In this document: in pieces, positions 18,519 through 19,697 of the stretch
Layout of the letters: the number at the start of each line of letters is the position of its first letter
How positions within the stretch are numbered: position 1 is the stretch's first letter
Assembly (NCBI RefSeq): GCF_000002865.3
Contig: NW_001865080.1
Location: 17,875 to 60,616 of the forward strand
Reading direction: 5' to 3'
DNA length: 42,742 nucleotides
From: Monosiga brevicollis MX1
Lineage: Eukaryota > Opisthokonta > Choanoflagellata > Craspedida > Salpingoecidae
The notes under the pieces: model-generated
Told to the model about the DNA's origin: nothing
What the model saw: only the letters and a program-made list of their open reading frames with translations
Database searches by the model: none
Translations under genes and position numbers: made by a program

Positions 18519-19697
18519 ATGCTGATTCCCAAGGCGAACCGCAAGGCGATCTACACCCGCCTCTTCCAGGAGGGTGTCCTCATCGCTGAGAAGGATTTCA
18601 ACGCTCCCGCTCACTCTGAGCTGGCCGAGATCCCCAACCTCCAGGTCATCAAGGCCTGCCAGTCGCTCAACTCTCGCGGCTATGTCAAGGAGCAGTTCGC
18701 GTGGCGCCACTACTACTGGTACCTGACCGATGAGGGTCTCGAGTACCTCCGCACTTACCTCCACCTTCCCGCGGAGGTTGTGCCCAACACCCACAAGCAG
18801 CCTGCTCGCCCCACCGCTCGCCCCGGTCGCGCGGCTGCTCGCCCTGCTGCCTCGGGTTTCCGTGGTGCCGCGGATTCCTACCGCCGTGGTAAGCCTGCTC
18901 TCCAAATGATCCAGCTTCCACACACGCACAACTTTTGATACACCAAACAGCTCCACAACTTGTTGATACGATTGCTTTGTGGAGTGGCAATCTGCCAACG
19001 ACTTTGACATGTCCATGCTATTTTATGGCCGTGTTTGTTCCCCAACCCGCCCGAACACCAAGTGTTTCTTCTTTTTCTTGTTCATTGATGACTCAGGCAT
19101 TTGGCTTTATGCCGGCCTGTAGTGGGTCGGCACATGCTGAAAACTCTAGCTACCTTTTACATCTCTGAGAACAAGCAAAGATGACCTGTGTTGTGTTTGT
19201 GTCTGATTCTTTTTCCTCCCCGGCACGGGCAAGGCGCGTTTGGGTCTGCCTCGACCCAGTTTTGTTCCCTGATGACTCAGGCATTTGGCTTTATGCCGGC
19301 CTGTAGTGGGTCGGCAAATGCTGAAAACTCTAGCTACCTTTTATTTCTCTGAGAACAAAATCCCGCCTTGCTTGTGTCTTCGATTTGTTGGTGGTGCTTT
19401 TGTCGTTTATTCTTGTTCACTGATGACTCAGGCATTTGGCTTTATGTCGGCCTGTAGTGGGTCGGCACATGCTGAAAACCCTAGCTACCTTTAATTACTC
19501 TGAGAACAAGACAACTGATACCCATCCTTCACCATCCAATCACATGCATCGCCCTGCCGCTGTTTTTTTGCACGCTAGCTCACTCGTACTCTTCCTTGCT
19601 TTTGCTACTTTCTTCAGACGAGGGCAAGGTTGGTGGTGCCGGTCCTGGCTTCCAGCCCCAGTTCAAAGGCTCGTACGGTCGTGGTGCCTCCATGTAA
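18519..19697 (+). CDS. RPS10: 40S ribosomal protein S10 (eS10), 149 aa
   Basis: Exons 18519-18888 and 19618-19697 (450 nt). The N-terminal winged-helix domain is unmistakable: [56 protein letters not shown], followed by the Arg/Gly/Pro-rich tail ending in YGRGASM. eS10 sits in the beak of the 40S subunit near the mRNA entry. The start MLIPK matches the family (MLMPK in human); an ATG five codons upstream is probably in the 5' intron. The only coding intron (729 nt) is far longer than its neighbours and carries three box C/D snoRNA-like elements, the usual host arrangement for guide RNAs in ribosomal protein genes. Confidence 0.97.
19077..19175 (+). ncRNA. Box C/D snoRNA-like element, copy 1 (RPS10 intron)
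   Basis: Terminal stem CTTGTTC (19077-19083) with GAACAAG (19169-19175), C box TGATGA (19086-19091), D box CTGA (19165-19168), and an internal CTGA (19137-19140) that could be D'. Between them is an 8-bp hairpin (TGCCGGCC with GGTCGGCA, one wobble). The segment AGGCATTTGGCT (19095-19106) is a perfect complement of a conserved 28S rRNA stretch recalled as AGCCAAATGCCT. Spliced-intron processing is the expected biogenesis. Confidence 0.82.
19260..19360 (+). ncRNA. Box C/D snoRNA-like element, copy 2 (RPS10 intron)
   Basis: Nearly identical to copy 1 in the core. The terminal stem is TTTTGTTC (19260-19267) with GAACAAAA (19353-19360): the outer pair C-G of copy 1 is T-A here, a compensatory change. 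C box 19270-19275, D box 19349-19352, internal CTGA 19321-19324, rRNA-complementary segment 19279-19290. The bases directly before the D box (TTTATTTCT) differ from copy 1. Confidence 0.82.
19411..19511 (+). ncRNA. Box C/D snoRNA-like element, copy 3 (RPS10 intron)
   Basis: The terminal stem TCTTGTTC (19411-19418) pairs fully with GAACAAGA (19504-19511). C box 19421-19426, D box 19500-19503, internal CTGA 19472-19475, rRNA-complementary segment 19430-19441. The internal hairpin keeps pairing with one G-U. Bases before the D box (TTTAATTACT) differ again, while the core is conserved. Confidence 0.82.

Follow-up and report, generated by a model that had tools for sequence, protein, structure and literature searches.

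The RPS10 intron examined here contains three 99-nt units that, from their boxes, stems, and spacing, are very likely box C/D snoRNA genes. The reading we prefer, with a probability of about 0.65, is that these units act as snR13-like guides on the 28S site equivalent to yeast A2280/A2281. They would be additional members of a well-known kind of RNA, probably methylation guides to a known site in the large-subunit rRNA. The candidate 28S target is new here, as the initial annotation of this DNA named none. The units provide well-supported genes for guide RNAs in a lineage where we found no snoRNA catalogue in the open-access literature.

The elements had been assigned to a 729-nt intron of RPS10, and this assignment is borne out by GT..AG boundaries and by an upstream exon that encodes an S10_plectin domain (PF03501, E 2.2e-45). 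They had been described as three elements of about 100 nt that share TGATGA, CTGA, and an internal hairpin, and we recovered them as three copies with pairwise identities of 92, 92, and 91 of 99 positions. When the copies were compared in 10-nt bins, identity was 6 to 10 of 10 within the units and 0 to 6 of 10 outside them, and similarity ends at the outer pair of the terminal stem. Alignments of the six spacer pairs were no better than those of shuffled sequences, with the strongest pair matched by 12 of 200 shuffles. These sharp limits of similarity, together with the unrelated spacers, indicate that the conserved entity is the stem-bounded unit and not the surrounding intron. Eleven positions vary among the copies, and all lie outside the 40 positions proposed to be functional (P 0.002 in a post hoc test). 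For the guide and accessory segments alone, the absence of variable positions has a P of 0.08. A DNA search of the genome placed the element at one place, the RPS10 intron, with limited candidates scored, such that distant copies may be missed. A pattern search of the genome, also with limited candidates scored, returned four matches, which are the three copies and one site with three mismatches. One scan of viral contigs gave no match to the element.

Coordinates of the RPS10 host intron, the three units, and their proposed internal features (positions in the window)
Feature	Positions	Strand	Remarks
RPS10 host intron	18889-19617	+	GT..AG; PF03501 in exon 18519-18887
Copy 1 (99 nt)	19077-19175	+	stem 19077-19083/19169-19175; box C 19085-19091; box D 19165-19168
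Copy 2 (99 nt)	19261-19359	+	stem 19261-19267/19353-19359; box C 19269-19275; box D 19349-19352
Copy 3 (99 nt)	19412-19510	+	stem 19412-19418/19504-19510; box C 19420-19426; box D 19500-19503
D' guide AGGCATTTGGC (proposed)	copy 1 19095-19105; copy 2 19279-19289; copy 3 19430-19440	+	perfect complement, L006 28S
Degenerate D' box TTTA (proposed)	copy 1 19106-19109; copy 2 19290-19293; copy 3 19441-19444	+	abuts 5' arm of hairpin
Internal hairpin TGCCGGCCT/GGGTCGGCA	copy 1 19110-19132; copy 2 19294-19316; copy 3 19445-19467	+	fold prediction
C' box ATGCTGA (proposed)	copy 1 19134-19140; copy 2 19318-19324; copy 3 19469-19475	+	6/7 of RTGATGA
Accessory segment GCTACCTT (proposed)	copy 1 19149-19156; copy 2 19333-19340; copy 3 19484-19491	+	complements AAGGTAGC beside the guide target, L006

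All three copies have box C (UGAUGA) and box D (CUGA), and the R position of box C is U, C, and C in copies 1 to 3, not a purine. The kink-turn geometry is exact in each copy: a stem, three unpaired bases ending in U, and GAUGA, with CUGA against the stem. The kink-turn spacing (3-nt bulge and tandem G-A) and the terminal stem were thereby found in three of three copies. The terminal stem has 7 bp in every copy (CTTGTTC/GAACAAG in copies 1 and 3, TTTGTTC/GAACAAA in copy 2). It reaches 7, 9, and 8 bp in copies 1 to 3 when extended outward with G-U pairs allowed. The outer pair is C-G, T-A, and C-G in copies 1 to 3. This covariation had been put forward as an argument for a folded RNA; the change itself is present, but it concerns one of the seven pairs and amounts to a single compensatory event, and the unit boundaries are the stronger evidence.

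We scanned both strands of the window (the whole stretch of DNA that was analysed, 42,742 nt) for TGATGA with a 3-nt bulge, CTGA 50 to 130 nt further on, and an abutting stem of at least 5 pairs. Three places were identified, all of them the three copies, against a chance expectation from 100 first-order Markov sequences of 0.13 places with stems of at least 5 pairs, 0.06 with at least 6, and 0.01 with at least 7. Across the whole contig, C15 (230,375 non-N letters of 260,982), stems of at least 7 pairs occur solely at the three copies, and none occurred in 15 simulated contigs. A locally duplicated C/D guide family, as originally proposed, is the best reading of units that end at the stem, have an exact kink-turn, and are invariant (post hoc) in their proposed functional segments. 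Searches of the window, the intron, and copy 1 against Rfam returned nothing at the gathering score and only weak, chance-level matches at E values up to 10 (0, 5, and 2 across scans). The description of the family as probably unannotated fits this lack of any above-chance Rfam family match, although the comparison is with Rfam and not with the genome annotation.

Contig C15 has two further C/D-like places with stems of 6 pairs, compared with 0.2 expected. One (G000:C15:158974-158873, minus strand) has exact kink-turn spacing and lies approximately 320 nt from a U15 homologue, described below, on the opposite strand. The rRNA matches of two inner pieces of this stretch were no better than those of shuffles (24 and 21 of 40). 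The other (G000:C15:256095-256227, plus strand) is plausibly due to chance.

Within each unit, the proposed D' box, UUUA, has two of the four letters of CUGA and sits directly before a 9-bp internal hairpin, one arm of which reads TGT.. in copy 3. The C' candidate, AUGCUGA, comes after the hairpin and a 3-nt bulge, which places the hairpin between D' and C'. We dropped a reading of AUGCUGA as the D' box (by its CUGA) in favour of C', as the hairpin and the 3-nt bulge give a kink-turn register. A rival internal fold, in which CUCAGGC pairs with GCCUGUAGU, excludes the hairpin. For copies 1 and 3 it is predicted to be the minimum, and there it would mask part of the guide. In copies 1 to 3, the pairs of the internal hairpin have mean probabilities of 0.47, 0.96, and 0.06, and those of the terminal stem 0.91, 0.87, and 0.98. 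The internal hairpin is real but ambiguous: prediction gives two mutually exclusive folds, either of which may be adopted in the particle, and the minimum differs by copy.

We searched the genome assembly for the 5.8S family, an 18S motif, and the 28S site motif and found none of them, and rDNA seems to be absent from the assembly. As the species' own rDNA was not found there, the 28S site was taken from one proxy eukaryote (L006). The proxy rRNAs are eukaryotic rDNA within contigs of public collections, and L006 alone provides the target stretch uninterrupted: the model ranges of L005 and L007 miss it, L002 had no rRNA match, L004 was left out, and in the 28S of L003 a group I intron match begins at the target stretch. 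The eukaryotic rRNA genes of L003, L005, L006, and L007 are located in contigs filed as bacterial genomes, and L003 has three group I intron matches within or beside its rRNA genes.

In the L006 proxy, the sequence upstream of the weak D' box, AGGCAUUUGGC, is antisense to 28S GCCAAAUGCCU. The 28S reads CTTAAGGTAGCCAAATGCCTCG there, to which AGGCAUUUGGCU in the unit is perfectly complementary over 12 nt. A second segment, GCUACCUU, is invariant in three of three copies and is an 8-nt complement of 28S AAGGUAGC, which adjoins the guide target. Modified positions reported for yeast include m5C2278, Am2280, Am2281, and Gm2288 (PMC5199042). The published positions fit CAAAUGCCUCG in one register, in which the fifth base from UUUA falls on A2280 and the sixth on A2281.

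Among 20,000 shuffles, 4.1% gave a 12-nt complement somewhere in the pooled proxy rRNAs, and 328 of 400,000 gave one of at least 11 nt to this exact 28S site. Both pairings, at most 30 nt apart at any place in the 4,896 nt of proxy rRNA, occurred in 780 of 200,000 shuffles. Given the guide match, the accessory match has a chance of 0.8% in a 28-nt neighbourhood and 2.1% in a 60-nt neighbourhood, percentages that are optimistic because the accessory match was noticed after the guide match. By duplex energy, the D' guide does not stand out, with 16 of 40 shuffles as good. Whole-element matches to three rRNAs, a set that excludes the L006 28S, were equalled by 39, 34, and 30 of 60 shuffles. We also considered, and rejected, a conventional D guide shared by the three copies: within the seven bases that precede box D, positions 82 and 84-86 vary, and in copy 1 the best ungapped match of this region with a start in the conserved part ends eight bases before box D (L007).

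The 28S reading demands AAGGUAGCCAAAUGCCU in the species' own 28S. A U15/SNORD15 homologue is present on the same contig as the element, at a separate locus outside the window (G000:C15:158408-158551, plus strand, corresponding to L008 1376-1519). This homologue carries GAGGCAUUUG, which implies that the 28S of this genome has the target site; it also carries GAGGCAUUUGUCUGA and GAUGACGAGUCUGA. Against the SNORD15 model (RF00067) it scored 49.1 bits, below the cut-off of 75, with an E value of 6.5e-10 on its own stretch. In the genome-wide search its E value was 3.2e-8, the best of the 8 places listed, and the next was 0.54. The element itself was not matched by RF00067 at E values up to 10, and the RPS10 intron is absent among the 8 genome-wide places listed. 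The pattern AGGCATTTG-N0-3-CTGA occurs at 11 places in the genome (5 forward and 6 reverse). Seven of these 11 loci gave no Rfam match at the gathering score, and the L008 stretch, the sole such locus scanned at E values up to 10, gave SNORD15. Another of these loci, L009, has TGATGA 87 nt upstream and a 5-pair stem.

Under the 28S reading, each unit would encode, within the intron, a box C/D snoRNA that is freed from the RPS10 intron after splicing and, as expected from its family, binds the Snu13/Nop/fibrillarin core. The AGGCAUUUGGC segment before the degenerate D' box (UUUA, or CUUUA counting the last guide base) would pair with 28S GCCAAAUGCCU and bring fibrillarin to the A that corresponds to A2280 of yeast 25S, possibly also to the one that corresponds to A2281. 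The GCUACCUU segment, 3' of C', would form with the adjoining AAGGUAGC an accessory pairing that overlaps the guide. The three copies may raise the dose of the RNA or be redundant.

Several other explanations have to be weighed against this reading. The units could be genuine box C/D snoRNAs whose D' match is a coincidence, the true target lying elsewhere in the 28S or in a different RNA, which we regard as unlikely. One candidate for such a site is AUGAUUAGAGGU: copy 3 forms 11 consecutive pairs beside box D (9 Watson-Crick and 2 G-U) with the 28S of L005 in the D+5 register, and 10 with that of L003. The energy of this match was equalled by 6 of 40 shuffles, and for the region beside box D the corresponding counts were 14, 5, and 6 of 40 in copies 1 to 3. 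However, the pairing is broken at 4 and 2 of its 11 positions in copies 1 and 2, L007 breaks one position, L006 lacks the searched motif, and nothing found indicates methylation of the AUGAUUAGAGGU site. It would also leave the invariant AGGCAUUUGGC unexplained, and the D' guide has no other explanation under either reading. Because the copy-3 match overlaps the accessory segment, part of that segment's conservation could be due to it. As it offers another reading of part of the segment, we reduced our confidence in the 28S model to 0.65, from 0.7. If this alternative were true, a mark would be expected at the A of AUGAUUAGAGG.

Three folded units inside one ribosomal-protein intron might instead be structured elements that are not released and that influence the splicing or feedback of RPS10 in cis; intronic snoRNAs are described as able to regulate their host gene through base pairing with intron sequence close by (PMC10324135). 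This explanation is very improbable: an exact C/D kink-turn whose bulge holds the variable bases speaks for Snu13-type binding, and elements acting in cis would need no terminal stem to close each unit. We give even less credence to functionless decayed or recent repeats, such as mobile or duplicated pseudogene copies. Three similar copies in succession would suit them, and snoRNA duplication with loss of expression is reported to be common (PMC12309372). The boxes and stems are intact in all three copies, though, the spacers are unrelated, and the genome searches, with limited candidates scored, gave no further copy beyond the intron save the 3-mismatch pattern site.

With the 28S reading preferred, the element can be compared with U15, with which it shares the antisense AGGCAUUUG. 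In U15 this antisense precedes box D and selects the A2281 equivalent, whereas in the element it precedes D'. The site of U15 would thus have the element as its second guide, for which chicken offers a precedent: chicken U15 lies in introns of RPS3, likewise a ribosomal-protein gene, and acts as a 3' guide, and a 5'-guide snoRNA is located elsewhere (PMC2653536). Neurospora CD1 and chicken GGgCD49 are listed as D' (5') guides that match the snR13/U15 site over 10 nt (PMC2780460, PMC2653536), a likeness of listing and not of compared sequences. In Arabidopsis, the D and D' guides of U15 are reported to serve the equivalents of A2281 and G2288 (PMC8053127, PMC8817022).

A close parallel is yeast snR13 (RF01223), in which, as described, one D' guide methylates L2280 and L2281, and the D' box is UCGA, or CUCGA when the last guide base, C, is counted with it (PMC5389607). 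Its accessory pairing overlaps the guide, and mutating this pairing reduced modification at L2280 and left none detectable at L2281 (PMC5389607). Like snR13, the element would have a D' guide in register for A2280/A2281 (on the proxy 28S), a D' box without its 5' C, C as the last guide base, and a candidate accessory pairing beside the target that overlaps the guide (an 8-nt match in three of three copies, part of which has another reading in copy 3). This likeness is set by the published description and not by the letters of the snR13 guide and accessory segments. Unlike snR13, with its model of 124 positions, the unit is 99 nt long, has a 9-bp hairpin between D' and C', and is RPS10-intronic in three copies. 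The RF01223 profile did not match the element at E values up to 10, and its whole-genome search returned one place, on C47, with an E value of 8.68. As neither the snR13 nor the SNORD15 profile of Rfam matches, we term the element snR13-like and not a member of snR13.

Tentatively, a snR13-type two-site D' guide with an overlapping accessory pairing might coexist here with a canonical U15. Two guide RNAs with overlapping targets would then serve the adjacent A2280 and A2281, and the snR13 type would rest on a genuine C'/D' kink-turn stem and be maintained in triplicate. The double specificity of snR13 is reported not to be conserved in Arabidopsis (PMC8053127). If the target is right, the units offer a natural setting in which to ask how snR13-like RNAs select two neighbouring sites. 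They would also test whether snR13 and U15, which are placed in one Rfam clan (PMC3511168), represent a single old family or two separate ones.
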